Shown piece by piece: positions 2,560 to 28,740 of a stretch of 28,740 nt of DNA. The notes below the pieces were generated by a model. That model was not told where the DNA came from. It saw nothing but the letters and a program-made list of their open reading frames with translations, and did no database searches. How positions within the stretch are numbered: position 1 is the stretch's first letter; every line of letters starts with the position of its first letter. Source of the stretch: a virus; the IMG/VR virus record IMGVR_UViG_3300027805_000063, positions 1-28,740 of that record, one strand, 5' to 3'. The translations under genes were made by a program, and so were the position numbers.

Positions 2560-2563
<4 letters not shown>
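2219..2563 (+). CDS. Beta-rich tail/fibre-associated protein
   Basis: This 114-residue protein is built from alternating beta strands: [36 protein letters not shown], a Thr-rich middle, and a last strand around [12 protein letters not shown]. This layout, with the ILEGKF(I/V)V ending, is common in small phage proteins beside fibre genes and resembles the N-terminal part of baseplate upper proteins. The TTG start overlaps the previous stop; its own TGA overlaps the GTG of the collagen-like gene. It probably attaches or supports the fibre made by the next gene (inference). Confidence 0.7.
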
Positions 2564-3459
<896 letters not shown>

Positions 3460-8327: not shown

Positions 8328-9134
8328 ATGGGTATGGAAATCATACCTATGGAACAGATCGCTGAACAGTTGCACAACAGGTACCGCACAAGTGGGTACT
8401 CTGAGCAGTTGTTCAAGCAAGATATGCAGATCATTAGACGGCTGGGTGTTCACCCTGCTCTAGCAACTTACGAGGACCTAGAGCGGGTGATACTCCAGGC
8501 TACTAGGCAGTCTACCAAGGCTACCTACGTAGCAAGGCTCAGAAGCATCTACAAGTCCCTTAATAAGATGGGGTTGGTAGGTGGTCACAACCCTGCTGAA
8601 CAACTGCCACAGGTCAAGCCAGGGCGTGGTGTGCCTAAGCCTGTAACCAAGGGTGAATACCAGAAGTTGCTGGCAGAAGCCAAGAACCCAACGCTACGCA
8701 ACTGGTTTATCTTAGGTGGCACAGCAGGGCTTCGTGCTATGGAAGTAGCCAACATCAAAGGCTCAGACCTAATAGAGCACGAGGACGGGTACTCTTTACG
8801 AGTACAGGGCAAAGGTGGAACAGACCTGATTGTCCCAGTATCTCCAATAGTCTCAGATATGATTAGGTCATACGGAACTCTTGGCAGACTATGGCAGGTA
8901 ACGCCTAATAAGTTATCTAGTAGAGCAGCCAATGAGATGCGTCGCATCCTTGGACCAGACGCTAAGCATTTCCACAGTCTCAGGCATTACTTCGCAACGA
9001 CGATGCTTGAGAAATCAGGCGGAGATTTGATTGCTGTTAAAGAACTTATGCGCCACACAAGTGTGGCTACAACCCAAATTTATACACAGTTAGCACAAGG
9101 TAGAACTAGATCACTGGTGAACCTTTTAGAATAA
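8328..9134 (+). CDS. Tyrosine recombinase / integrase
   Basis: The 268-residue protein has an N-terminal SAM-like DNA-binding domain (about 1-95) and a C-terminal catalytic domain. All key residues are visible: Arg136 in GLRAMEV, Lys162 in QGKGG, His216 and Arg219 in HSLRH, His243 in LMRHTS and the nucleophile Tyr252 in QIYT. It should therefore be active in cutting and rejoining DNA. Several Met codons (8328, 8334, 8349) could start it; the longest is given. It lies between the fibre cassette and a tail gene rather than beside attachment or immunity genes. I see no attachment core near it. Integration, dimer resolution or DNA rearrangement are all possible. Confidence 0.92.
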   Translation: MGMEIIPMEQIAEQLHNRYRTSGYSEQLFKQDMQIIRRLGVHPALATYEDLERVILQATRQSTKATYVARLRSIYKSLNKMGLVGGHNPAEQLPQVKPGRGVPKPVTKGEYQKLLAEAKNPTLRNWFILGGTAGLRAMEVANIKGSDLIEHEDGYSLRVQGKGGTDLIVPVSPIVSDMIRSYGTLGRLWQVTPNKLSSRAANEMRRILGPDAKHFHSLRHYFATTMLEKSGGDLIAVKELMRHTSVATTQIYTQLAQGRTRSLVNLLE

Positions 9135-9143
9135 GGAGAATAG

Positions 9144-11351
9144 ATGCCATACGGCGACGATATTACCGAGGGAATACCGTACGTACTTTCTAATCCTGCT
9201 GGATCTACTAACTACTCAGCCACAGGTGAGGCATACGATGTCGCTATTGGTGGCCTACCGTTCTTCTTGCTTAACTCTGATGATGCTCCTTATCGTCGCG
9301 TAACTGCCCAGTATCGTAAGCAACAGATTGACCAGTCCAGAGAACCTGGTGAACAGACGCTGACTGGTTGGTGGCTACGTAGCCAGTCATCATTCCACTA
9401 TGGACAAGGCATCAAGTTCTTTGAACCTATCCAGGATGAGTCGCTTCGCTTCCAGTACACAGAGTCTAAAGGTATTGATGTCTGGACCAAGGGACAGGCA
9501 ACGCTGCTTAAGTCATCTGTTGCTCAGCACGTAGTAACTGGTGGTATTCAAGCCAATGGTCGTCCGTGGCAATATGCACGTTCTATCCAATGGGAAAAAA
9601 ATAGCAATACCTATAACGGTATCTTGTTATCTGATGAGTATGACGTAGACAAGATCTTCCCAGCAATTACTGTATCTATTAGCAATAAGGCGTTGACATC
9701 TAACGTAGCGACACTGACTACCACTGCAGCACACGGTCTATCTGTGGGTATGCAGATTACTATTACTGGTGTGGATGCAACCTTTAATGGTGAGTACCGC
9801 ATCACTGGTGTACCTACAACTACTACCTTTACCTACGCCAAGACTGCTGCAGATGTTGCATCAACTCCTGTATCTCCAGTAGGTACAGGCGTTGCCGATG
9901 TTATTCACTTTGTTGACTACATATCTGGCACTGACTACCCAGTACACGCTATCTGTGATGATGGTGTCTATGCCTATTGGGTTACTAACGTACTCAATGC
10001 TGGAACTCCAAGACTAAGAGTGTACAAGAAGTTACTATCGGATGATAGTTCTGTATCACCTACTCTAATGATTAGCGAAAACAGCATCACTGTAACTAAC
10101 GCTGTTATGGAATACACCAAAGAGCGTATCGTAATGTGCGTCAACGACAAGGTGTATGAGTTTTCTAGTACTGCAACATCATTACCAGCAGCGGTCTATT
10201 CACACAATGACCCAGATCATATCTTTACTAGCATTACATCTAGTGGTGCTGCTATCTACATCGCAGGCTATAGCGGTATCCAGTCCAACATCTACAAGTT
10301 TACTTTGTCTACGGCTGGTGCTATGCCTACCCTGACCAGTGCTATCACTGCAGCAGAGTTACCAGTAGGTGAGATTGTATTTAGAATTGCTTACTACCTT
10401 GGCAATATGGCTATTGGCACTAGCCAAGGTATGCGTATGGCAGATGCAAGTCAACTCGATGGTTCTATTACCTACGGTGCTTTAATCTTTGAATCAACCC
10501 AACCAGTCTATGACTTTGGTTTCCGTGACAGATACATCTGGGCTGCCTCTGGCGTTGATGGTCAGGTCGGTGTGACTCGTGTAGATATGGGTCAACCATT
10601 AGGTAACCTTCAGTTCCCTTATGCCTATGACTTGTACAACCCAGCAGATACGCTAGGTCATTACACCACAGCGTGTGCTTTCCTTGGGGATACTAACCGC
10701 TTAGCATTTTGTAATGCTGGCAATGGTGTAGATGGTGCTATCTATATTGAGTCTGCTTCTACTTTGTTAGAAGAAGGATTCCTACGTACAGGTTACGTCC
10801 GATACAACACACTAGAACTCAAGATCTACAAGTTAATGCAGGCTCGTATTGATACCACTAATGGTGGACTATTGATTGACTCTGTTGACTATGCCGATAA
10901 CTTCTATCGCATCGGTACCTTTGCACAACAGGCATTGGTTCCAGAGATTAACATTAACTATCCTCAAGCATCACAGGAATACCTTGGCTTCCAGTTCACA
11001 CTGACTCGTTCAACAACTGATGTTACTAAGGGTCCACTGTTTACTGGATACCAGATTAAGGCACTACCTGCTATCCCACGTCAGCGACTAATCCAGTATC
11101 CACTGTCTTGCTTTGACCACGAATCAGATCACTTCGGCGTTGAGATTGGCTATGAAGGTTCTGCTTACTTCCGTATGTCTCAGTTGGAATCTATTGAGAA
11201 TGTGGGAGACACCATCCGCGTTGAAGACTTTAGAACTGGTGAGTCCTACATCGGACTTATCGAAGAGTTGGACTTTAGAAATGCAACCCCTTCAGATAAG
11301 CGCTTCAGCGGATACGGTGGAACGCTCTTAGTAACCATTAGGACGGTCTAA
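9144..11351 (+). CDS. Large tail protein, nozzle/beta-propeller-like
   Basis: This 735-residue protein is the longest complete gene here. AAGGAG at 9133-9138 fixes ATG 9144. The N-terminus has PGEQTLTGWWLRSQSSFHYG. Residues about 170-245 hold an inserted Ig-like module (ALTSNVATLTTTAAHGLSVG, TFNGEYRITGVPTTTTFTYA) found in many virion proteins. The rest consists of repeated blade-like strands with YxW/F patterns, suggesting a beta-propeller. In a short-tailed phage a protein of this size and fold would be the tail nozzle (T7 gp12-like). That assignment is inferred from size, context and fold impression, not detected homology. Confidence 0.7.
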   Translation: MPYGDDITEGIPYVLSNPAGSTNYSATGEAYDVAIGGLPFFLLNSDDAPYRRVTAQYRKQQIDQSREPGEQTLTGWWLRSQSSFHYGQGIKFFEPIQDESLRFQYTESKGIDVWTKGQATLLKSSVAQHVVTGGIQANGRPWQYARSIQWEKNSNTYNGILLSDEYDVDKIFPAITVSISNKALTSNVATLTTTAAHGLSVGMQITITGVDATFNGEYRITGVPTTTTFTYAKTAADVASTPVSPVGTGVADVIHFVDYISGTDYPVHAICDDGVYAYWVTNVLNAGTPRLRVYKKLLSDDSSVSPTLMISENSITVTNAVMEYTKERIVMCVNDKVYEFSSTATSLPAAVYSHNDPDHIFTSITSSGAAIYIAGYSGIQSNIYKFTLSTAGAMPTLTSAITAAELPVGEIVFRIAYYLGNMAIGTSQGMRMADASQLDGSITYGALIFESTQPVYDFGFRDRYIWAASGVDGQVGVTRVDMGQPLGNLQFPYAYDLYNPADTLGHYTTACAFLGDTNRLAFCNAGNGVDGAIYIESASTLLEEGFLRTGYVRYNTLELKIYKLMQARIDTTNGGLLIDSVDYADNFYRIGTFAQQALVPEININYPQASQEYLGFQFTLTRSTTDVTKGPLFTGYQIKALPAIPRQRLIQYPLSCFDHESDHFGVEIGYEGSAYFRMSQLESIENVGDTIRVEDFRTGESYIGLIEELDFRNATPSDKRFSGYGGTLLVTIRTV

Positions 11352-11545
11352 TGCAGGCACAAGACTACGCAACAGTTGCTGTTGCAGTATGCACAATCAT
11401 CGGTGGCTTCGGCGCAGCAGTGCGCTGGATGGTTAAGCACTACCTCAATGAACTCAAGCCTAATGGTGGTTCATCAATTAAAGATTCAATCACAAGATTA
11501 GAAGAACGCATAGATGATCTGTACCGATTGATTGCAGAGAAATGA
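11351..11545 (+). CDS. Small membrane protein with C-terminal coiled coil (holin-like)
   Basis: The 64-residue protein has one membrane segment (about residues 6-28, YATVAVAVCTIIGGFGAAV), then a basic patch, a Gly-rich hinge and an amphipathic helix (SITRLEERIDDLYRLIAEK) likely to form a coiled coil. ATG 11351 overlaps the stop of the tail protein. It is immediately followed by the endolysin, so it is probably part of the lysis cassette, as a second holin, antiholin or pinholin-like protein. The precise role is inferred. Confidence 0.7.
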   Translation: MQAQDYATVAVAVCTIIGGFGAAVRWMVKHYLNELKPNGGSSIKDSITRLEERIDDLYRLIAEK

Positions 11546-11551
11546 GTAACG

Positions 11552-12052
11552 ATGAAACCTGTTGCCAAGAGAGCCACACCTGCCGCTATTGCTGTCCTTC
11601 GACAAGCCACAGCGATATCGCCTTCTCGGAAGAAAGCCTCAGATGGATTACTACCAAGCAAGGCACACATCAACCAGAGTCCTAACTCAGACCACAACAC
11701 AGGCTTTGCAGTAGACCTAACGCACGATCCTAAGCACGGCATTGATTGCTTTGATATCTTTGAAAAGTTAAAAGAAGATGCACGAGTTAAGTACCTGATA
11801 TTCCAGGGAAAGATCTGGTCTAAAGAAAGAGCCAAGCAAGGCAACAGAGTTTATACTGGAAGTAATCCACACAATAAGCACCTGCATATATCTATCAATG
11901 ATGGTATGGGCAAGGACACATCACCTTGGTTCTGGTGGTTAAACCAACCAAAGATCATTAGTCAAGTTATCGCAAAGGTAACACCAGTGCCTGCTAAGAA
12001 GGCATACAAGACCGAAGTTTGTACCTGTTGCAAAGTGCACGGTGCAAAGTAA
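11552..12052 (+). CDS. Endolysin, M15-type peptidase
   Basis: The 166-residue protein carries the zinc-peptidase pattern SDHNTGFAVDLTHD (His48, Asp55) and PHNKHLHISI (His112), the three metal ligands of M15/VanY-like peptidases that cut the peptide part of peptidoglycan. The segment between (ARVKYLIFQGKIWSKERA, then YTGSNPHNK) matches phage lysins of this group. There is no signal peptide, so release needs a holin; holin-like genes flank it. The C-terminus ends with a Cys-rich VCTCCKVHGAK, unusual for a lysin and possibly a small metal or wall-binding tail. Confidence 0.9.
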   Translation: MKPVAKRATPAAIAVLRQATAISPSRKKASDGLLPSKAHINQSPNSDHNTGFAVDLTHDPKHGIDCFDIFEKLKEDARVKYLIFQGKIWSKERAKQGNRVYTGSNPHNKHLHISINDGMGKDTSPWFWWLNQPKIISQVIAKVTPVPAKKAYKTEVCTCCKVHGAK

Positions 12053-12070
12053 TCCCCATAGGAGGAAACA

Positions 12071-12256
12071 ATGGAACAATTCAAGCAACTCGGCCTAACT
12101 TGGTTTCGTGCTGCAGCAGCATCTGCAGTAGCACTATTCCTTGCAGGTGAGTCAGACCCTAAGACACTAGCAATGGCAGCAATCGCTGGCTTTGCTGGTC
12201 CACTACTTAAGTGGTTAGACGCATCAGCACCAGAGTTTGGACGTGGGTCTAAGTAA
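12071..12256 (+). CDS. Holin
   Basis: The 61-residue protein has two hydrophobic stretches (about 10-26, TWFRAAAASAVALFLAG, and 33-49, LAMAAIAGFAGPLLKWL) joined by a short polar turn, and ends APEFGRGSK. I recognise this as the small two-helix holin common in actinobacterial phages; it forms holes that let the endolysin reach the wall. AGGAGG at 12060-12065 is placed ideally for ATG 12071, so expression should be strong. It is the last gene before the terminator of the virion operon. Confidence 0.85.
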   Translation: MEQFKQLGLTWFRAAAASAVALFLAGESDPKTLAMAAIAGFAGPLLKWLDASAPEFGRGSK

Positions 12257-12275
12257 CCCACTAGCGCGAGGCAAT

Positions 12276-12311
12276 AGAAAGAGGCCCCTCTTCGGAGGGG
12301 CTTCTTTTTTT
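12276..12311 (+). terminator. Strong intrinsic terminator (possibly bidirectional)
   Basis: The core GCCCCTC / GAGGGGC stem pairs around a TTCG tetraloop (12291-12294). Pairing extends outward through AAAGAG and TTCTTT to about 14-15 base pairs, followed by a run of T. It closes the plus-strand virion and lysis operon. On the other strand the same stem lies just after the minus-strand HNH gene, so it may end both. Confidence 0.93.
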
Positions 12312-12315
12312 ATGC

Positions 12316-12666
12316 CTAAAATATGCCTGAGTTGCTGTCGCCTGCAAGGTGTGTCTTGAGCCTGTGGCAGTTCGCACACAGGGTTTGCAGGTTGGCTGGG
12401 TCATTATTAAAGCGGTCACCGTCTATGTGGTCTACGTCCAACTGACTGATGTGTACTGGCCTGAAGTCACACTGCTCGCAGTACTCCTTGCGGTGAGCGT
12501 GGTAGGGAGAACGTGCCTTCATCTGATTGATCTTGTAGATGGTATTGCAACGGTATCTACCTGATACTGGCTTAGACTTATCTCGTATCTTTATTCTTGT
12601 GGGGCCACAAACTGAGCACATTCCTGTGCGTTCTACTTCATTAACCTCAGAGAGTCTGTGCTTCAT
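12316..12666 (-). CDS. HNH endonuclease
   Basis: The 116-residue protein contains CSVC (17-20), CEQC (63-66), the core LDVDHIDGDRFNNDPANLQ with His80, and LCANCHRLKT with Cys97, Cys100 and His101. This is the classic HNH fold with zinc-binding Cys pairs, a DNA-cutting enzyme. In phages such genes are either homing enzymes or help terminase-linked DNA cutting. It overlaps the upstream zinc-ribbon gene by 20 bases, so both are on one minus-strand message ending at the terminator at 12276-12311. Confidence 0.93.
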   Translation of the reverse strand: MKHRLSEVNEVERTGMCSVCGPTRIKIRDKSKPVSGRYRCNTIYKINQMKARSPYHAHRKEYCEQCDFRPVHISQLDVDHIDGDRFNNDPANLQTLCANCHRLKTHLAGDSNSGIF

Positions 12667-12901
12667 CTTTATCTACTGGACAAGGGACAGTGACTATGTT
12701 GCCACAGTTAACACAGGTACCATCAAGAAAGTACCAGACTAGTTCGTGATCTTCAAAGGATGCCATTATGGAAAAGACTTGTGAACCACAGGGACATACG
12801 TGTACTGGACCAAGACCTCGTAAGTCAGTACCAAATTTATCTGGTAGTTTGTGCCTAAATTTCGGCAGCCTTGGTAGACGGAACCGCACAGTCAGTACCA
12901 T
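12647..12901 (-). CDS. Zinc-ribbon protein of actinophage type
   Basis: From ATG at 12901 the protein has 84 residues. A basic N-terminus (LPRLPKFRHKLP) leads into GLGPVHVCPCGSQVF with Cys36 and Cys38, then DHELVWYFLDGTCVNCGN with Cys63 and Cys66, and a final PCPVD. Paired Cys of this kind form a zinc ribbon. I have seen this pattern in short actinophage proteins of unknown role. An in-frame start 42 bases further upstream would place the 12908-12924 hairpin inside the coding region, so the internal start is preferred. A nucleic-acid-binding role is possible. Confidence 0.75.
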   Translation of the reverse strand: MVLTVRFRLPRLPKFRHKLPDKFGTDLRGLGPVHVCPCGSQVFSIMASFEDHELVWYFLDGTCVNCGNIVTVPCPVDKDEAQTL

Positions 12902-12907
12902 ACCATC

Positions 12908-12924
12908 GTGCCCCCTTGGGGCAC
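12908..12924 (-). promoter_or_regulatory. Perfect hairpin before the minus-strand zinc-ribbon gene
   Basis: GTGCCCC at 12908-12914 pairs fully with GGGGCAC at 12918-12924 around a three-base loop. In minus-strand RNA it ends just upstream of the ATG at 12901 and could hide the start or act in attenuation. A TACAAT (minus strand, about 12950-12955) further upstream resembles a -10 element. The function is inferred. Confidence 0.4.
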
Positions 12925-12968
12925 CCTGTTTAATTCGCCTCACGGCTCATATTGTAACGACTAGTAGT

Positions 12969-13012
12969 GTCGCTAACGCGACGACACGCCGTTCTCTAGT
13001 ACACTCTCCAGT
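12969..13012 (+). promoter_or_regulatory. Putative leaderless promoter with operator-like dyad
   Basis: Upstream of ATG 13013 there is no ribosome-binding site. TACACT at 13000-13005 resembles an actinobacterial -10 element and lies seven bases before the ATG, the spacing expected if transcription starts at the start codon. A dyad GTCGC-TAAC-GCGAC at 12969-12982 covers the place of a -35 element and could be an operator. Leaderless mRNAs are common in Actinobacteria; the rest is inference. Confidence 0.4.
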
Positions 13013-13570
13013 ATGACAACAATCGCGGCGCTAGAAGGTATCGACTACGCAGTACTAGTAGCAGATTCTCAGATCACAGAAGATAATCTTGTAACGCTTG
13101 CAACCAGTACACCTAAGATCGTAGAGGTAGGCAAGTTCCTAATAGGAATCTCAGGTGATACACGACCAGGAGATATCCTTGCCTACAACTGGAAGCCACC
13201 GACCTATCGTGGTGAGAACCCAGCACAATTTATGGGTAAGAAGATTATTCCTAGTATCAACCAAGCCTTTAACGACAACAACTACGACTACAACAAGGTG
13301 GACAAAGATGGCGGTTTTGATTATCTCATTGCTTTTAACGGTAACATCTTTCGTATTGCTTGCGATCTCTCTTTTTTCCAAGCAAATGTCGGAGCGTATG
13401 GCATTGGTAGTGGAGGTCAGTTTGCTCTTGGCTATCTCGCTTCAATTGTCAAGCCTGATATGGAGTTAGCCTACGCCAAGCGACACGCACGAAAGGCTGT
13501 AGAGATTGCATCGGTACTTGACGCGAACACTGGTAAGCCCATACAGTTAGTGGTCCAGGAAAGGATGTAA
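13013..13570 (+). CDS. Proteasome beta-subunit / HslV-like Ntn hydrolase
   Basis: The 185-residue protein begins MTTIAALEGIDYAVLVADSQ. Removal of Met would expose Thr2, the N-terminal nucleophile of proteasome and HslV peptidases. Asp18 in ADSQ matches the conserved Asp17, and Lys35 in TPKIVEVG lies within one residue of the catalytic Lys33. FLIGISGD, GAYGIGSGGQFALG and VLDANTGKPIQLV match the later strands and the GSGG-type loop of the fold. The length is close to HslV and to a propeptide-less beta subunit. It opens the plus-strand replication operon. It may degrade host or phage proteins, act with the host proteasome ATPase, or disturb host proteasome assembly; none of these is shown by sequence. 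Confidence 0.85.
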   Translation: MTTIAALEGIDYAVLVADSQITEDNLVTLATSTPKIVEVGKFLIGISGDTRPGDILAYNWKPPTYRGENPAQFMGKKIIPSINQAFNDNNYDYNKVDKDGGFDYLIAFNGNIFRIACDLSFFQANVGAYGIGSGGQFALGYLASIVKPDMELAYAKRHARKAVEIASVLDANTGKPIQLVVQERM

Positions 13571-13572
13571 CT

Positions 13573-13818
13573 ATGGAAATGACAGATGAGTATGCTGCTA
13601 AATACTTTCATCGTATGGGCTGGCAGTCAGCACAATTAAGTTATTCATTTAATCCTATGGCAATGCGTGAGAAGATTGCACAAGAGATTGAAGCATCAAG
13701 AGAAAAATACATTGAATTATGTAAAGATAAAGATTCTGAGAATTATCAGTTTAACAACGGTGTTTGCAATGGTATGTTCCTTGCAATTATGTTAGCAAGG
13801 GGTAAGAATGCACACTGA
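13573..13818 (+). CDS. Unknown actinophage protein (81 aa)
   Basis: The 81-residue protein contains AAKYFHRMGWQSAQLSYSF, a charged helix (MREKIAQEIEASREKYIELC) and an end motif YQFNNGVCNGMFLAIMLARG. I have seen the end motif in short actinophage proteins without assigned function. AAAGGA about nine bases before ATG 13573 supports the start, and its end overlaps the exonuclease gene by 11 bases, so it belongs to the replication operon. Confidence 0.75.
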   Translation: MEMTDEYAAKYFHRMGWQSAQLSYSFNPMAMREKIAQEIEASREKYIELCKDKDSENYQFNNGVCNGMFLAIMLARGKNAH

Positions 13819-14752
13819 TCCGAAAGAACTACTGCTCACTGCACTACGTGCAGGTGATGCAAAGCGTTCACGTTCTACACAGGTACAGATAGGACCATCA
13901 GAGTTAGGTGGTTGCCGTCGTAAAGTTTGGTATCGATTGAACGATCAACCAGAGACTAACGAGAACGAGATGAAACTCGCTGCGATTATGGGTACTGCTA
14001 TCCACGCAGAGATTGAACGAGCACTAGCAGACAACCCAGATGTAATGATTGAAACATCAGTTGAGTACAACGGTATGAAGGCACACATCGACTGCTACGT
14101 ACCAGGTACTGGTGATGTCATTGACTGGAAGACAAGCAAAGTCAAGAACCTTAGTTACTTCCCATCAACACAGCAACGCTGGCAGGTACAGACATACGGC
14201 TATCTACTAGCAAAGAACGGCTACGATGTGAAGCGCGTCTCGCTCGTTGCTATTGCACGTGATGGTGATGAGCGAGATGTCAAAGTACATACAGAACCAT
14301 ACGATGAAACCATTGCACTACAAGCATTGAACTGGTTAGAAGCAATCAAGGTAGCAGATACTGCACCAGATCCAGAACGTGATGCTTCCTATTGCAAACA
14401 CTATTGCAAGTTCTATGACGCATCAGGTGAGATGGGATGCGTTGGTATAAAAAAAGAACTTACACCAGCAACTGACCTACTAATTGATGATGCTGATATT
14501 GACAAGAATGCACTGCTGTACTTACAGTTAGCAGCACAGATCAAGGTACTAGAGAAGGAACAAGATTCATTGAAGACTTCTTTTGAAGGACTGTTGGGAG
14601 TAACACCTAGTGGAATAGAAGTCAGTTGGACAACTGTCAAGGGACGTGAAAGTATTGACAGTGAGGAAGTAGAAAAACTTATTGGGTATGTGCCTAAGAA
14701 GTTTGGTAATGAATCACAAAGGTTATCAATCAGACAAACTGGAGGAAAGTAA
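13808..14752 (+). CDS. Cas4/RecB-like PD-(D/E)XK exonuclease
   Basis: The 314-residue protein has the nuclease residues His66 (GTAIHAEIE), Asp95 (KAHIDCYV), Asp106 and Lys108 (VIDWKTSK) and a QxxxY motif (QVQTY, Gln126-Tyr130). Cys36 in GGCRRKVW together with Cys196, Cys200 and Cys211 makes the four-Cys set that holds an iron-sulfur cluster in Cas4 and AddB-type nucleases. Such enzymes resect DNA ends for recombination, replication or host DNA breakdown. After about residue 215 comes an extra helical region. There is no CRISPR array or other cas gene here, so it is a phage recombination enzyme rather than a CRISPR adaptation protein. Confidence 0.9.
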   Translation: MHTDPKELLLTALRAGDAKRSRSTQVQIGPSELGGCRRKVWYRLNDQPETNENEMKLAAIMGTAIHAEIERALADNPDVMIETSVEYNGMKAHIDCYVPGTGDVIDWKTSKVKNLSYFPSTQQRWQVQTYGYLLAKNGYDVKRVSLVAIARDGDERDVKVHTEPYDETIALQALNWLEAIKVADTAPDPERDASYCKHYCKFYDASGEMGCVGIKKELTPATDLLIDDADIDKNALLYLQLAAQIKVLEKEQDSLKTSFEGLLGVTPSGIEVSWTTVKGRESIDSEEVEKLIGYVPKKFGNESQRLSIRQTGGK

Positions 14753-15133
14753 ATGGCAACAGAAGGCACAAAGTATCAAATAAATTACAAGTTAAATGAT
14801 GGAACGCTCATCAATCTCTATGCAAAAGATGTCAAGGATTTAGAGACAGGTCTTGCAGATCTAGGTATGGTTGCAACACTTATCAAGTCAACTAGTAATG
14901 ACTTACACGGTGGAGCACCAGCACCAACAGTTGCATCAGTTGCTGAATCATTTAATGCAACTCCAGTTGCTGCACCCGCACAACCACAGGTTGTAGAAGG
15001 ACAGGCACCTACCTGCAAGCACGGTAATATGACATACCGTACTGGTACATCTGCTCGTGGACCTTGGAGAGCGTGGATGTGCTCTGCACCAAAGGGTGCA
15101 GTAGATAAGTGCGACCCTATCTTCTTAAGATAA
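14753..15133 (+). CDS. Zinc-binding protein, possible single-strand DNA binder
   Basis: The 126-residue protein has an N-terminal beta domain (YQINYKLNDGTLINLYAKD), a flexible Ala/Pro linker (about 55-85) and a C-terminal knuckle CKHGNMTYRTGTSARGPWRA with Cys88, His90, Cys110 and Cys120. The knuckle resembles the topoisomerase-type zinc fingers that touch single-stranded DNA. GGAGG at 14741-14745 supports ATG 14753. Position right after the exonuclease suggests a partner in recombination or replication (inference). Confidence 0.75.
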   Translation: MATEGTKYQINYKLNDGTLINLYAKDVKDLETGLADLGMVATLIKSTSNDLHGGAPAPTVASVAESFNATPVAAPAQPQVVEGQAPTCKHGNMTYRTGTSARGPWRAWMCSAPKGAVDKCDPIFLR

Positions 15134-15137
15134 TACG

Positions 15138-15407
15138 ATGCGGGAGCCTCGTGAGTACGAGAACCCGCTATGTGCAGAGATAGGTGGTGACTTCTGGTTT
15201 CCTGATAAAGATAAGGAATCAGTAAGTTACATTGAAAGTCAGTATGCAAAGTCAATCTGTAAACGTTGTACTCATAGAACCGAATGTGCTGAGTGGGGAA
15301 TCCACAAGGAACAGTTTGGTATATGGGGTGGGCTTGCACCACGTGAACGTCTTGCAGTAAGGAGACAACGCAGAATAAATCTTGGAGGGGATGGGGAAGT
15401 TGCTTAA
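15138..15407 (+). CDS. WhiB-family transcription regulator
   Basis: The 89-residue protein has the WhiB signature: Cys12, then Cys41, Cys44 and Cys50 (CKRCTHRTEC) that bind a 4Fe-4S cluster, followed by GIWGG (61-65) and a basic tail RLAVRRQRR. WhiB proteins bind the primary sigma factor and tune promoter choice, and occur only in Actinobacteria and their phages. Phage copies can block or redirect host genes, as WhiB of mycobacteriophage TM4 does. It is the best host marker in the window. Its last 17 bases overlap the ATPase gene. Confidence 0.95.
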   Translation: MREPREYENPLCAEIGGDFWFPDKDKESVSYIESQYAKSICKRCTHRTECAEWGIHKEQFGIWGGLAPRERLAVRRQRRINLGGDGEVA

Positions 15408-16215
15408 TCTAAAGCGGGCGATGGGCGGTAGCCACACCAAGGCTATACCGTTGCCTGATGTATGGACTGGCCTTGCTGGTGAGTCCATTAAGTTTAGACG
15501 TGGGCAAGTATGTATGGTTGCTGCTGCACCTAATGCTGGTAAGAGTATGTTTGCTCTTGTCTATGCAATCAAGGCTAAGGTACCAACTCTTTTCTTCTCA
15601 GCCGATACTGATACTGCAACAGTCCTGATGCGATCTGCAGCACAGATCTCAGGGCATACGCAGTTAACTGTTGAGTCCAATATGGAATACAAGGAAGACT
15701 TTTACAGTGAACACCTATCAAAGATGTCACACATACAATGGGTATTCGATTCAAGTCCATCATTAGATGACATTGAATTGGAGATTAAAGCCTACGTTGA
15801 ACTGTATGGAATAGCACCTGAGTTAATTATCATTGATAACTTAATGAATGTTGCTGCCGAAACAGACAATGAATGGGCAGGGCTACGTGCAATTATGATG
15901 GAGTTGCACGATATGGCACGCAAGACTCAGGCTTGCGTCTTAGTACTCCATCACGTCAGCGAGCAGAGTGAGTATGGTTCACCGAGTATGCCACCACCGC
16001 GTCGTGCTATTCACGGTAAGGTCAGCCAGTTACCTGCGCTGATACTCACATTGGGTTATGACCCAGGTCAAGGGATGTTGCGTGTGGCTGCGGTGAAGAA
16101 TCGCTTTGGTCCACACACAGCAGATGCCTCTAAATGGGCTACACTATTTGTTAACTTTGCAGCGTGCCAGATAGGAGATCAAGATGCACAAGGTAGGGCC
16201 TACTTACGTGTTTGA
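15391..16215 (+). CDS. DnaB/RecA-like replicative ATPase
   Basis: From ATG 15391 the protein has 274 residues. Walker A is APNAGKS (46-52) and Walker B is LIIIDNL (145-151). CVLVLHHVSEQ (182-192) and VKNRFGPH (236-242) follow the order of DnaB/RepA RecA-fold helicases. The DnaB N-terminal domain is absent, so it is a short helicase core, as in several phages with a separate primase. A TTG nine bases upstream could also start it; GGAGG at 15384-15388 is very close to the ATG, so the start is uncertain. It overlaps WhiB and precedes a resolvase-like gene. Confidence 0.85.
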   Translation: MGKLLNLKRAMGGSHTKAIPLPDVWTGLAGESIKFRRGQVCMVAAAPNAGKSMFALVYAIKAKVPTLFFSADTDTATVLMRSAAQISGHTQLTVESNMEYKEDFYSEHLSKMSHIQWVFDSSPSLDDIELEIKAYVELYGIAPELIIIDNLMNVAAETDNEWAGLRAIMMELHDMARKTQACVLVLHHVSEQSEYGSPSMPPPRRAIHGKVSQLPALILTLGYDPGQGMLRVAAVKNRFGPHTADASKWATLFVNFAACQIGDQDAQGRAYLRV

Positions 16216-16233
16216 TATTCAGGTGGTGCGCTA

Positions 16234-16584
16234 ATGGCTAATCCCAATGGACGTAAAGGTTCTCAGTTCGAGACAGATGTAATGAAATGGCTACGCAAAT
16301 GCGGAGTTATGGCAGAACGTTTGACTAAGGCTGGGGCAAAAGATGAAGGGGATATGGTTGCGATCATCGCGGGGAAAACCTATATCCTTGAACTCAAGAA
16401 CAGGGCAACCCTTTCCTTGCCTGAGTTCTGGAGAGAAGCAGAAGTTGAGGCGCTTAACTATGCCAATGCTCGTGGCCTTGGGGAAGTTCCACTGCATTAC
16501 GTTGTAGTTAAGCGTCGCAACTCTGGAATAGAAAACGCCTGGGTTATTCAAGACCTAGCACAATGGATCAAGGAGAAACAATAA
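16234..16584 (+). CDS. Holliday-junction resolvase-like nuclease
   Basis: The 116-residue protein starts with KGSQFETDVMKWLRK (Glu13), then DEGDMVAII (Asp40) and YILELKNRA (Glu53, Lys55). This E...D...ExK order is the active site of small PD-(D/E)XK nucleases such as archaeal-type resolvases and VRR-NUC proteins. A role in resolving branched DNA before packaging is likely. The stop overlaps the start of the next small gene. Confidence 0.85.
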   Translation: MANPNGRKGSQFETDVMKWLRKCGVMAERLTKAGAKDEGDMVAIIAGKTYILELKNRATLSLPEFWREAEVEALNYANARGLGEVPLHYVVVKRRNSGIENAWVIQDLAQWIKEKQ

Positions 16585-16691
16585 TGCCAGTACCAGAAGG
16601 TGAAATCACCACAACAGATATCCTAGTACCAGAAGAAGTAGTTGAAGAATCAACTACCGAAGAAGAGGCAGATGATAGTACGCCTGAGTAG
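16584..16691 (+). CDS. Tiny acidic protein (35 aa)
   Basis: This 35-residue protein, MPVPEGEITTTDILVPEEVV followed by a run of Glu, Asp and Thr, begins in a TAATG overlap with the nuclease. It has no Lys or Arg at all, so it is strongly negative, a composition typical of DNA-mimic proteins or flexible tails. AAGGAG at 16570-16575 supports the start. Function is unknown. Confidence 0.55.
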   Translation: MPVPEGEITTTDILVPEEVVEESTTEEEADDSTPE

Positions 16692-17154
16692 GGATGAAGT
16701 AAGAGTTTGTACACTGCTTGCAACAGAGCGTTGGCTTGCTAAGTATGGTTCTGTAGACAGACCTAACTATGCAGAGGGTAAGAAGAACGGCTACTTAGAG
16801 CACGAACTTCTTGCCAATGTCCGAGCCAACGTCTCTGAGTGGGCAGTTGCATCTCTCACTGATACTGCTTGGAATGTACCTTGGTATCCTAATGAACTAC
16901 ATCCTCGTCGTGCTAAGTTGCCTGATGTTGGTGTTAACTTTGAGGTACGCACAGTACGCACACGTGATTCGATTCCTTTTTGGAGCAAAGATAGTGGCAA
17001 GATAATTGTAGGAACTAAGATCCTTGATGAAGATTATTACTCACAGGTTGAAGTATATGGCTGGTGTAATCCTGAAGAGTATGCAACTATGCAGTACAGA
17101 GATGAAGCCATCGGTGGATGGCGTGTACCAGTAACAGAACTAAAGGAGTTCTAA
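16672..17154 (+). CDS. Conserved actinophage protein, possible nuclease fold
   Basis: From ATG 16672 the protein has 160 residues. The N-terminus MIVRLSRDEVRVCTLLATER is helical. The middle, LPDVGVNFEVRTVRTRDSIP, and SGKIIVGTKIL, YYSQVEVYGWCNPEEY alternate strands in a way that recalls PD-(D/E)XK nucleases, but the usual ExK is EVR, so activity is doubtful. An upstream TTG would overlap the acidic mini-gene entirely. I recognise the pattern from actinophage replication operons but know no function. It ends in TAATG with the next gene. Confidence 0.75.
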   Translation: MIVRLSRDEVRVCTLLATERWLAKYGSVDRPNYAEGKKNGYLEHELLANVRANVSEWAVASLTDTAWNVPWYPNELHPRRAKLPDVGVNFEVRTVRTRDSIPFWSKDSGKIIVGTKILDEDYYSQVEVYGWCNPEEYATMQYRDEAIGGWRVPVTELKEF

Positions 17155-17333
17155 TGATTTGTCAGAACTGTCACAAGGCAGGGGAAGAGAACACTCTAAC
17201 CCATTACAAACGTGCCTCTAATTGGCACGAGAAGTGCGACGACAAGGGGTGTGTATGCCAGCACAAGACTGGTCCAGGGTACGTAAAGCGGGACGGTTCA
17301 AAGGTACCGTTGATGCAAACACAATCCCCATAG
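17154..17333 (+). CDS. Small zinc-finger protein (59 aa)
   Basis: ATG 17154 is fixed by AAAGGAG at 17142-17148. The 59-residue protein carries Cys3/Cys6 (CQNC) and Cys28, Cys33 and Cys35 (KCDDKGCVCQH), enough for a zinc knuckle. Lys and His between them suggest nucleic-acid contact. Its last 79 bases are also read, in another frame, as the start of the primase zinc-finger gene. It may be an accessory of the primase (inference). Confidence 0.7.
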   Translation: MICQNCHKAGEENTLTHYKRASNWHEKCDDKGCVCQHKTGPGYVKRDGSKVPLMQTQSP

Positions 17334-17632
17334 GAGCAATTGTTCTGCACTACGGAGGGGAAGTACGAGAGGGTAGGTCTGCATCAGTAAGGTGCTGCAT
17401 CCATCCTGATAAAAGAAGAAGCGCTGTCATCAATACCTATGACAACTTATTCTTCTGCCACACCTGCGGGAAGGGTGGTAACGCAGTTAATGTTGTAGGT
17501 ATCATAGAGAACTTGGAGTTTAAGGATGCACTCGCACGAGCAATCGAGATCGTTGCTGGAAGCGGTCAATCATTACAGCAAAAACCTGGACACAAGGGCG
17601 CTAGAGTATCTCGAAGGACGTGGGATCTCTGA
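17255..17632 (+). CDS. Primase CHC2 zinc-finger subunit
   Basis: ATG 17255, with AAGGGG at 17244-17249, gives 125 residues. LHYGGEV and CCIHPDKRRSAVINTYDNLF followed by FCHTCGKGGNAVNVV match the DnaG-type CHC2 zinc domain (Cys47, His50, Cys68, Cys71), which recognises the priming site. A helix LEFKDALARAIEIVAG follows. The frame then diverges and stops, while the catalytic TOPRIM part continues in the +1 frame from 17526. So this is the first half of a split primase. The first 79 bases overlap the zinc-finger gene and the last 107 overlap the TOPRIM gene. Confidence 0.85.
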   Translation: MPAQDWSRVRKAGRFKGTVDANTIPIGAIVLHYGGEVREGRSASVRCCIHPDKRRSAVINTYDNLFFCHTCGKGGNAVNVVGIIENLEFKDALARAIEIVAGSGQSLQQKPGHKGARVSRRTWDL

Positions 17633-18167
17633 AGATGTTGCTCAACAGTTTTCGTTGGGTGTAGTAACAGACCCAATCAATGGTCACGAAATGCACGCGG
17701 GCTGGCTTTCTGTGCCCTATCTGACAGCCCTTGGTATGTGTGTGGGTGTAAAGTTTCGTAGGCTAGATGATGGCAAGCCTAAGTATGGTGCACCAGCAGG
17801 ACAGAAGGGTCACCTGTATAACGTGGCTGATGTCACTATTGATTCATCTAGTATCGTGGTGTGTGAGGGTGAGTTAGATGCAGTAGTTGTATCAGGTATC
17901 TTGAACCTGCCAGCAGTAGGAGTACCAGGAGTGCAGGCTTGGAAGCCACACTTTACTAAGTTATTTACAGGCTATGACATTGTGTATGTAGTTGGTGACA
18001 ATGATATCAAGGATGATGGTACCAACCCAGGTGCTGAGTTCTCCCGCCGTGTGTCACAGGAAGTAATGAACTCACGCATAGTATCCTTACCACCATCAAT
18101 GGACATCAATGACTTCTATCTTGCACACGGCAAGGATGAAGCGTTGAAATTATTTGGAGGCGTTTAA
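17526..18167 (+). CDS. Primase TOPRIM catalytic subunit
   Basis: The 213-residue protein starts at ATG 17526, with GGAG at 17515-17518 seven bases upstream. ALEYLEGRGISEDVAQQFSL is the typical DnaG linker. SIVVCEGELDAVVVSGI holds the TOPRIM Glu114, and YVVGDND holds Asp158 and Asp160, which bind the metals used for primer synthesis. SLPPSMDINDFYLAHG ends the domain. It lacks a zinc finger, supplied by the gene just before it. Its own start signals argue for a true separate gene rather than a simple sequencing error. Confidence 0.9.
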   Translation: MHSHEQSRSLLEAVNHYSKNLDTRALEYLEGRGISEDVAQQFSLGVVTDPINGHEMHAGWLSVPYLTALGMCVGVKFRRLDDGKPKYGAPAGQKGHLYNVADVTIDSSSIVVCEGELDAVVVSGILNLPAVGVPGVQAWKPHFTKLFTGYDIVYVVGDNDIKDDGTNPGAEFSRRVSQEVMNSRIVSLPPSMDINDFYLAHGKDEALKLFGGV

Positions 18168-18583
18168 TGTATGACAATGACCGAGAGCGAATGGGTCACG
18201 ATGCTACAAACTTTGCAGCATATGGGCTTCCAAATCCTGAATCACGACAGGTCAATGGAGACGATCTTAATAAAGCCATTGCCGACAAGATAGACCACAA
18301 GCACGTTCAGTTTGTTGTTGATGTCTGGGCTACCTTAGATAGTGCAGGTAACCTGCTCATCAAGAAGCATAAGGATTATGGTCCGACCAACATTAGTCTC
18401 TCACCTGGTGGTCCACTCAATGGTTTGCGTGTGCGTATGCACGACAAGACTGCACGCATCAACCACTTAATTGATACTGGTGCTACACCTGAGAACGAAT
18501 CGTTGCGTGATTCCTTTATTGATCTACTTAACTACAGTGCTATTGCACTGATGGTATTAGATGGTAAGTGGCCTAATGACTGA
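18167..18583 (+). CDS. DUF1599 / Nmad1-like protein
   Basis: The 138-residue protein contains KKHKDYGPTNISLSPGGPLN and VRMHDKTARINHLI, then SLRDSFIDLLNYSAIALMVL. This matches the DUF1599 or nucleotide-modification-associated domain 1, a helical MazG-like fold with acidic metal-binding residues found in phages. Members are thought to act on nucleotides, perhaps cleaning or supplying modified dNTPs. No base-modifying enzyme is visible beside it, so a pyrophosphatase-like housekeeping role is also possible. GGAGG at 18155-18159 supports the start. Confidence 0.85.
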   Translation: MYDNDRERMGHDATNFAAYGLPNPESRQVNGDDLNKAIADKIDHKHVQFVVDVWATLDSAGNLLIKKHKDYGPTNISLSPGGPLNGLRVRMHDKTARINHLIDTGATPENESLRDSFIDLLNYSAIALMVLDGKWPND

Positions 18584-19208
18584 GCCACACCCAGTAATTA
18601 ACGACATCGTACCTAGCGTAGTAACGCTAGTACACCGTCGCTATCGTAAGTATGTAGACCGTGTTGACCTGACGCAAGAGGCATACGCTTGGGTAATGAC
18701 ACGCATCTCATACTTCAATGCTTTACTAACAGAAGAGAACGAGGCCGTACGTCTGGCTAACCAAAGGCGTATCGGTTGGCAGATGAAGCGTGCTATCGAA
18801 CGCTATGCCCGCAAGGAGAAGGCGGCTAAGTCAGGCTATCAACCTAATGATGAAACCTTTTATGATGTCATCACCATTGCACAACTCTTGCCGTATGTAA
18901 TTGCAAGCGTGGTCAATGAGACTGCCATTGAACAGGCACAGAACCTTGTCAATGATGGCACACCACGCAAGCCTGCTGCACCCGCAGAAGGTGGCAACCT
19001 GTTAGCCACACTCATTGATATCAAGAAGGCATACGAGTTACTAGATGAGGATGAGAAGAATATCCTGCGCCTGCGCTATCACGAGAACTACACACTGCAA
19101 CAGTTGAGTGAGACTATCGAGTGTGCTATCTCTACTGCTGATCGTAGATGTGGCAACGCACTACGTAAACTACTTAACTTTATGGGAGGGGAGTCGCCTT
19201 ACCAGTGA
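18576..19208 (+). CDS. Sigma-factor-like regulator
   Basis: From ATG 18576 the protein has 210 residues. VDRVDLTQEAYAWVMTRIS near residue 30 resembles the start of sigma region 2. The last third, LLDEDEKNILRLRYHENYTL followed by QQLSETIECAISTADRRC, is a clear region-4-like helix-turn-helix. The two are joined by a Pro/Ala linker. It could direct RNA polymerase to phage promoters or act as an anti-host factor. An in-frame ATG at 18561 would add five residues. It overlaps the preceding gene by eight bases. Confidence 0.75.
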   Translation: MTEPHPVINDIVPSVVTLVHRRYRKYVDRVDLTQEAYAWVMTRISYFNALLTEENEAVRLANQRRIGWQMKRAIERYARKEKAAKSGYQPNDETFYDVITIAQLLPYVIASVVNETAIEQAQNLVNDGTPRKPAAPAEGGNLLATLIDIKKAYELLDEDEKNILRLRYHENYTLQQLSETIECAISTADRRCGNALRKLLNFMGGESPYQ

Positions 19209-26993: not shown

Positions 26994-28740
26994 TTGTTAT
27001 CAACTAAAGAGGTAGTAGCCAAGGTTAATCGCCTTCAAACACGCTACTCCGCACGTGACCAGAGAATGCGTGATGTGCTCTCTGTACGTCAGGGAGACAT
27101 TAGCAAGGTTTACCCTGCAATGTTTTCTGAGGAATATCCAAAGCCTCTAGTTGCTAACTTCATTGACGTAGCAGCACGTGACCTTGCAGAAGCAATGGCA
27201 CCGCTACCATCGTTTAACTGCGCTGCAACCAATATGGTTTCAGACTCAGCACGTAAGGCAGCAGACACACGTACTCGTATTGTTAACCATTACATCAGTG
27301 CATCTGAACTACAAATTCAAATGTACACAGGTGCTGATTGGTTTAATACCTACGGTATGTTGCCAGGTATGGTGGAGATGGACTATGAAACCAATAATCC
27401 AAGAATACGTCTGCTTAATCCTTTTGGTACTTATCCTGAAATTGATAGATTCGGTCGCACAGTTTCGCTTACACAAGTTATGGCATCTGATGCTGAAACG
27501 TTAGCGATGCAGTACCCAGAGTTCTATGACCAGATTATGCCAAAGAATGTTTATTCTCCTGGCTCACCGTATGTGTCACTAGTTCGCTACCACGACAAAG
27601 ACCAAGACTTAATCTTTATCCCAGAGCGTAAGAACCTAGTACTCTCAAACATTCCTAACCCTATTGGAAAGTGTATGGCCTACGTTGCTATGCGCTCATC
27701 CATTGACGGTGAAGCACGTGGACAGTTTGATGATGTTCTATCAGTTCAACTTGCTCGTGCTCGCTTTGCAGTATTGCAGATCCAAGCAGCAGAAAAATCT
27801 ATCCAAGCACCTATTGCTATTCCACAAGATGTGCAAGAGTTGGCACTGGGACCAGATGCAATTATGCGTTCTGCAAATCCACAAGGTATCCGACGTGTTC
27901 CACTAGAACTACCACCTGGAGTTTTTACTGAATCTGGTGTATTAGAGCGTGAACTACGTCTAGGTTCTCGTTACCCAGAGGTTCGCTCAGGTAACATTGA
28001 TGCATCTATCGTTACAGGCCGTGGTGTGCAAGCACTACAGGCAGGCTTTGATACACAGATCAAGTCAGCACAAGCACAGTTTGCCCGTATGTTTACAGAC
28101 CTTGCTTCTCTTTGCTTTGAAGTAGATGAGAAGATCTTTGGCAATATGACCAAGGAAATCAAGGGCGTAGATGATGGTACTCCGTTTAATATGAAGTACA
28201 TCCCATCAAAGCAGATTGATGGTAACTACGGTGTAGATGTTCGTTACGGAATTATGTCTGGTATGGATCCTAACCGTGCAATCATTGCATTGTTACAGAT
28301 GCGTTCAGACAAGTTAGTTTCTCGTGATTATGTACGCCGTGAGATTCCTATGGAACTCAACGTTACCCAGGAGGAACAACGTGTCGACATTGAAGAAATG
28401 CGCGACTCTTTGCGTGTTGCTGTTGCTCAGTATGCTCAGGCGATACCTGCTCTTGCAGCGCAAGGTCAAGATCCAAGTCAGATCATTACTCGTATTGCAG
28501 AAGTTATCCAAGGCCGTCAAAAGGGTCTTCAGTTAGAAACTATTATTGGTAAGGCATTTGCGCCAGAACCAGCGCCAGAGATGCCAGTAGCACCAGAACT
28601 AATGCAGGGTGCACCACAAGTTCCAGCAGCGGGAGCACTCCCTGCCCCTGCCTCGCAGCCAACTCCAGAACAACCAGGAGGCGCACCCGCTGCTGCTCAA
28701 CGTCCAGATATAGGCCAACTACTAGCCGCCATTGGCGGGG
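26994..28740 (+). CDS. Portal protein (partial, runs off the right end)
   Basis: The frame from TTG 26994 (AAGGA at 26983-26987, six bases upstream) stays open for 582 codons to the last base. It begins LLSTKEVVAKVNRLQTRYSA, has PLVANFIDVAARDLAEAMAP, RLLNPFGTYPEIDRFGR, SLVRYHDKD, a long helical stem and wing region (QFDDVLSVQLARARFAVLQI, GNIDASIVTGRGVQALQAGF), MKYIPSKQIDGNYGVDVRYG and a Pro/Ala-rich, disordered tail. This is the order of phage portal proteins, the 12-fold ring through which DNA enters the head. Missing sequence is at the C-terminus only. It follows terminase, as expected. Confidence 0.85.
   Translation, partial: MLSTKEVVAKVNRLQTRYSARDQRMRDVLSVRQGDISKVYPAMFSEEYPKPLVANFIDVAARDLAEAMAPLPSFNCAATNMVSDSARKAADTRTRIVNHYISASELQIQMYTGADWFNTYGMLPGMVEMDYETNNPRIRLLNPFGTYPEIDRFGRTVSLTQVMASDAETLAMQYPEFYDQIMPKNVYSPGSPYVSLVRYHDKDQDLIFIPERKNLVLSNIPNPIGKCMAYVAMRSSIDGEARGQFDDVLSVQLARARFAVLQIQAAEKSIQAPIAIPQDVQELALGPDAIMRSANPQGIRRVPLELPPGVFTESGVLERELRLGSRYPEVRSGNIDASIVTGRGVQALQAGFDTQIKSAQAQFARMFTDLASLCFEVDEKIFGNMTKEIKGVDDGTPFNMKYIPSKQIDGNYGVDVRYGIMSGMDPNRAIIALLQMRSDKLVSRDYVRREIPMELNVTQEEQRVDIEEMRDSLRVAVAQYAQAIPALAAQGQDPSQIITRIAEVIQGRQKGLQLETIIGKAFAPEPAPEMPVAPELMQGAPQVPAAGALPAPASQPTPEQPGGAPAAAQRPDIGQLLAAIGG

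Follow-up and report, generated by a model that had tools for sequence, protein, structure and literature searches.

The question raised by this locus is what a phage may gain from a proteasome-like hydrolase encoded at the head of its replication operon. The window, i.e., the entire stretch of DNA that was analyzed (28,740 nucleotides of the virus record IMGVR_UViG_3300027805_000063), contains an ORF at positions 13013-13570 on the plus strand whose product, a protein of 185 amino acids, begins with MTTIAALEGIDYAVLVADSQ (MTTIAALE...) and is identified as a proteasome-like Ntn hydrolase without a propeptide. A Pfam search yields a match to the Proteasome profile PF00227 with a score of 46.1 bits, above the curated cut-off of 22.4 (E = 5.7e-12), and the protein also matches PHROG 1040, "peptidase HslV family" (E = 5e-28). 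Thr2 immediately follows the first available start codon, and no start codon is found further upstream in frame, so that a propeptide cannot be encoded.

Alignment with 197 intact homologues from IMG/VR shows how the catalytic positions of the proteasome are retained (all codons on the plus strand). Thr2 (13016-13018), which would become the N-terminal nucleophile Thr1 once the methionine is removed, Asp18 (13064-13066, equivalent to Asp17) and Lys35 (13115-13117, equivalent to Lys33, with an offset of one residue) are invariant in 197 of 197 sequences. The GSGG loop of the window protein conforms to G[ST]G in all 197, with Ser or Thr in every homologue at the position of Ser133 (13409-13411, equivalent to Ser129), and Gly48, corresponding to the oxyanion-hole Gly47, is invariant as well. 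The stretch from Asp170 to Thr173 (13520-13531), which contains the equivalents of Asp166 and Ser169, is conserved in the homologues and lost in a clade with an MTC start that is discussed below; Asp170 is Asn in two of the 197 rows and Asp in the rest, and Thr173 is Thr throughout the near and E7-group rows and Thr or Ser in the DSL-LC01 group. Comparison of homologues with the window gene gives a dN/dS of about 0.06 (median dS 0.69). Judging from these alignments, the catalytic residues are under strong constraint and the gene is subject to purifying selection. The preliminary description had named the Thr, Asp18, Lys35 and GSGG positions and the absence of a propeptide; all are borne out, and Gly48, Asp170 and Thr173 extend the match with the proteasome beyond the residues first named.

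An AlphaFold2 model of a single chain (51 sequences; pLDDT 88.1, pTM 0.83; lowest confidence in residues 21-30), combined with comparison to PDB structures, predicts the proteasome-beta fold, namely a sandwich of strands S1-S11 and helices H1-H4. A Foldseek search identifies BPH of Thiobacillus denitrificans as the top PDB match (E = 7e-12, TM 0.76), followed by proteasome beta and HslV, and VIA-align yields Z scores of 19-20 across about 170 residues with proteasome beta subunits and BPH. When the PDB sequences are searched by profile, BPH (5.7e-11) and then HslV (2.6e-10) come first. The Ntn hydrolase fold, which the preliminary description had set as a check on itself, is what the structure prediction gives (Z of about 20), and the homologues keep the Thr, Asp and Lys together. 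Taken with the Pfam score, these results put the resemblance well beyond coincidence.

Group I of the proteasome homologues consists of HslV, BPH, AAH, CPH, PPH and others (Fuchs, Alva, Lupas 2021, PMC8665760); that survey found PPH and AAH in phages, with no function assigned, and no Actinobacteria-specific AAH phage (PMC8665760). With HslV (ClpQ), the window protein shares the fold, the N-terminal TT and the active site, and the HslV name is used in PHROGs and for phage DSL-LC01, but the equivalog cut-offs are missed by far (TIGR03692, 20.8 vs 157.75 bits; NF003964, 21.4 vs 137), and no HslU-type ATPase is detected in close relatives. An identity with PrcB was likewise rejected, with no match to TIGR03690, the bacterial 20S beta model, at E <= 1. 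PPH (PMC8665760) is similarly phage-borne, with Thr1, Asp17 and Lys33 and with no propeptide or known unfoldase, but is shorter, at about 140 residues against 185 in the window protein, and is without helix H2, which is predicted in the window protein at 70-88; the PPH-like phage proteins (the 152-aa protein of DSS3P8 and two others, by our own assignment) are a more remote profile. BPH (PDB 5OVS/5OVU), the top PDB match in both Foldseek and profile searches, has the same active-site set, no propeptide and, like the window protein, an acidic loop after H2, but it is a bacterial protein with about 22% identity to the window protein and a long, uncertain branch.

The nearest profile outside actinophages is that of a probable AAH clade, so named from the hosts, which comprises proteins from rhizobial and Streptomyces plasmids and from some phages. 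These proteins share with the window protein the segment R..IL..W.PP after Gly47, but differ in mostly starting with MTC, in carrying a Ser, or in one case a Gln, at position 47 and in lacking Asp166/Ser169, and they form a separate clade in the tree (100/99) with the window protein outside. The actinophage sequences lie across the split from this clade. Those of DSL-LC01, E7/F5, Hum25 (Arthrobacter), Pumpernickel and WaterT (both Microbacterium) have the full catalytic set of the window protein, but are about 30% identical to it where compared and are encoded at other gene positions. The joint branch of the actinophage sequences is weak (56/73), as deep splits of this tree are, and long branches meet there, so that neither the rooting nor the order of the actinophage groups is claimed, and the classification of the protein is kept at the level of a group-I proteasome homologue. 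By sequence, the window protein is a divergent group-I homologue, near yet apart from the probable AAH clade, and is not HslV, PrcB or PPH. Phage proteasome homologues have already been described (Fuchs 2021); the new part is an abundant actinophage branch.

A scan of IMG/VR identifies at least 587 confirmed relatives, counts that are not independent given that the contigs are partly redundant; the best 80 of the 587 are 91-98% identical. Further groups are those of the Actinomycetia phage DSL-LC01, with 244 loci, and of the Planktophila phages E7/F5, with 38 loci, both about 30-40% identical to the window protein. Homologues in other actinophages, for which the preliminary description had proposed a search, are thus found in several named phages (DSL-LC01, E7, F5, Hum25, Pitbull, Pumpernickel, WaterT and others) and in hundreds of phage contigs; they are annotated as "protease" or "ATP-dependent protease subunit HslV", or are unannotated, and in the freshwater actinophage papers covered by the search, among them the DSL-LC01 and E7/F5 papers, the main text mentions neither HslV nor a proteasome. 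Among 12 records sampled by their terminase, the gene is present in nine, including five of the five that are at least 37 kb long, and the remaining three, which also lack the neighbors on both sides, are apparently fragments that stop short of the locus. With nine of nine terminase-sampled records that span the locus, this is a core gene of the lineage. Two queries against the GTDB genome contigs (84,980 species) identify no homologue, so that no prophage or chromosomal source is shown, and plasmid searches yield nothing beyond the rhizobial/Paraburkholderia/Streptomyces clade. This absence of a prophage copy contrasts with the presence in the window of an ORF that reads like a tyrosine recombinase (8328-9134), which is near the locus in some relatives only (L019, L071, L075).

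Downstream of the proteasome-like gene are a small ORF, a PD-(D/E)XK/Cas4-like exonuclease in the same operon (13808-14752), a WhiB-like regulator (15138-15407; Pfam Whib, E = 1.2e-13), a DnaB-like replicative helicase (15382-16215; PHROG 243, E = 7.2e-72), a RusA-like protein, primase parts including the catalytic part (17526-18167), and a sigma-70 region 4 protein (18561-19208), with all coordinates on the plus strand. The first place in a replication operon, as originally described, is correct according to this annotation. The window terminase is closest to that of E7/F5 (45.8%), and these phages were isolated on 'Ca. Planktophila' (PMC10202952); their records, OX376640/41, carry the names LanE43-AprE7 and LanE43-AprF5, in agreement with the phage names. 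Because of the WhiB gene in the operon and the terminase nearest to that of these cultured Planktophila phages, the virus is taken to be an actinobacterial phage, as the preliminary description had it. The portal gene (26994-28739) runs past the end of the window, which is therefore a fragment.

The upstream region suggests how the operon is expressed (elements on the plus strand). A -10 box, TACACT (13000-13005), is located 7 nt 5' of the ATG, and comparison of 46 distinct upstreams shows that 44 carry TANNNT at a distance of 6-7 nt from the start codon, vs 6.4% in shuffles, and that five carry an SD-like word; four relatives have a TTG start, and in the two of their upstreams left after duplicate filtering the -10 box is missing. 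These sequence comparisons are good evidence of a leaderless transcript. Thus, of the earlier suggestion that first place in the operon and a possible leaderless promoter point to early production, the promoter is strongly supported, and early timing is probable. Just 5' of the promoter, the dyad GTCGC-TAAC-GCGAC (12969-12982) is a candidate operator; the pattern GTCGC-N4-GCGAC, of which the window contains one exact copy, is by itself not rarer than chance, and the candidate is supported by conservation in the relatives, where paired changes (GTTGC..GCAAC) occur. A terminator-like hairpin (12908-12924) lies ahead of the unit, with pairing kept and a stem sequence that varies between relatives, as read from the alignment and not counted. 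Also upstream is a divergent HNH gene. The sequence TTGGTAGACGGAACCGCA (12868-12905), which resembles the D-arm of tRNA-Leu/Ser, is kept in most relatives though the flanks differ; ARAGORN finds no tRNA and Rfam at gathering scores finds no family here, and at permissive E-values Rfam gives sub-threshold matches only, around 12222-12323.

Whether the phage supplies an unfoldase bears directly on the mechanism. When AAA_2 (HslU/ClpX type) and AAA domains are searched for, 14 of 14 control genomes are positive, but no such domain is detected in seven relatives of about 40 kb from the window group, records that are not certified complete and in which an unfoldase could be missed; an AAA_2 gene is present in a 267-kb relative. 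HslV is not listed for Actinobacteria, and BPH has no known unfoldase (PMC8665760). Given that no phage AAA+ unfoldase is detected and that HslV is unreported from actinobacteria, the enzyme most likely has no dedicated unfoldase or uses one of the host.

We consider the best account, at a probability of roughly 45%, to be a self-assembling threonine protease that belongs to the phage, works either unfoldase-free or with a host unfoldase, and most likely serves to eliminate host or defence proteins at takeover. Produced, probably early, from the leaderless promoter that precedes the replication operon, the subunit would lose its methionine and expose Thr1, which is expected to form the active center together with Asp17 and Lys33, residues that are all observed. 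By analogy with BPH or HslV, the subunits probably assemble into a double ring. The protease would then most likely act, unaided or with a host unfoldase, on host proteins that are unfolded or specifically bound, and thereby clear host or defence proteins during takeover. A more ambitious version, in which a separate actinophage subfamily with a complete catalytic set assembles by itself and breaks down host or defence proteins with no unfoldase involved, i.e., represents a true viral proteasome, is tentative and rather doubtful. If true, some of the commonest lake phages would possess a true viral proteasome for takeover, and the subfamily would be the branch in actinophages for which the 2021 survey searched in vain. 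In either case, viral proteasome homologues, known since 2021 without a function, now include one whose gene is core to an abundant freshwater lineage.

A narrower alternative is that the enzyme is not a general shredder of host proteins, but eliminates proteins of anti-phage defence or repressors, or terminates the activity of the early proteins of the phage itself. The position at the head of an early-looking operon, beside the exonuclease and WhiB, and the fixed presence in the lineage are compatible with such a role, but no PADLOC family matches the window protein or two of its neighbors, and this option appears unlikely.

The gene position within related phages bears on another possibility, namely that the enzyme serves in virion assembly, trimming or clearing away scaffold proteins or proteins inside the head as the capsid matures. 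In the E7 group, where terminase, portal, tail, lysis, helicase and primase are homologous to those of the window group, the gene is directly behind the portal, the usual site of a prohead protease, and is absent before the helicase; in three window-group relatives of about 40 kb (G004-G006), it is the first gene of the replication operon, and other small ORFs follow the portal. The two sites among related phages are exemplified by L089 (3001-3537) on the one hand and G004-G006 and G008 on the other, so that the position is not fixed. The E7/F5 homologue, likely late there, is a poor fit to a purely early role, and the capsid role is for this reason kept as a rival; furthermore, no prohead protease is recognized among the genes scanned from the portal to the major head protein of G005. 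However, the window group shares the terminase, portal and tail genes and yet encodes the protein at the head of the replication operon, under its own promoter and far from the portal, with another small ORF in the portal-adjacent slot, and Microbacterium phage WaterT encodes an annotated capsid maturation protease in addition to the homologue gp15. A capsid function of the window protein is accordingly quite unlikely. Very large proteins are encoded downstream of the portal in G005 (12205-16968, L237, 1587 aa) and G008 (10524-15719, L239, 1731 aa); a PHROG scan of one of these yields no match.

A proteasome-like protein need not form rings, as the monomeric ligase connectase shows (PMC8665760). 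A non-degradative role as a transpeptidase or a specific ligase or amidase of this kind would agree with a model that is silent on assembly, but seems improbable because helix pairs H1-H4 for ring contacts are predicted, whereas connectase lacks H1/H2, and in the window protein nothing is inserted over the active site. A 20S proteasome is frequent among actinobacteria, and the window protein shares the beta fold with it. Nevertheless, the original idea that the window protein is incorporated into the host proteasome or poisons it, whether through mixed assemblies with PrcA/PrcB or through capture of Mpa, is very hard to maintain: there is no match to TIGR03690, the closest solved relatives by profile, BPH and HslV, with which the protein groups as a group-I homologue, both form rings by themselves (PMC8665760), and the whole catalytic set is retained, which a pure poison would not need.

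For the favored reading, a self-assembling protease of the phage, the existence of relatives in cultured phage-host pairs (Planktophila E7/F5, Arthrobacter Hum25, Microbacterium WaterT and Pumpernickel) makes the role of a viral proteasome subunit directly testable. Among other genes of the window, the primase is split over two overlapping ORFs with zinc-finger-like and catalytic parts (17222-18167), and the ORF at 2560-3459 encodes a collagen-like protein of 299 amino acids with Gly-X-Y repeats.
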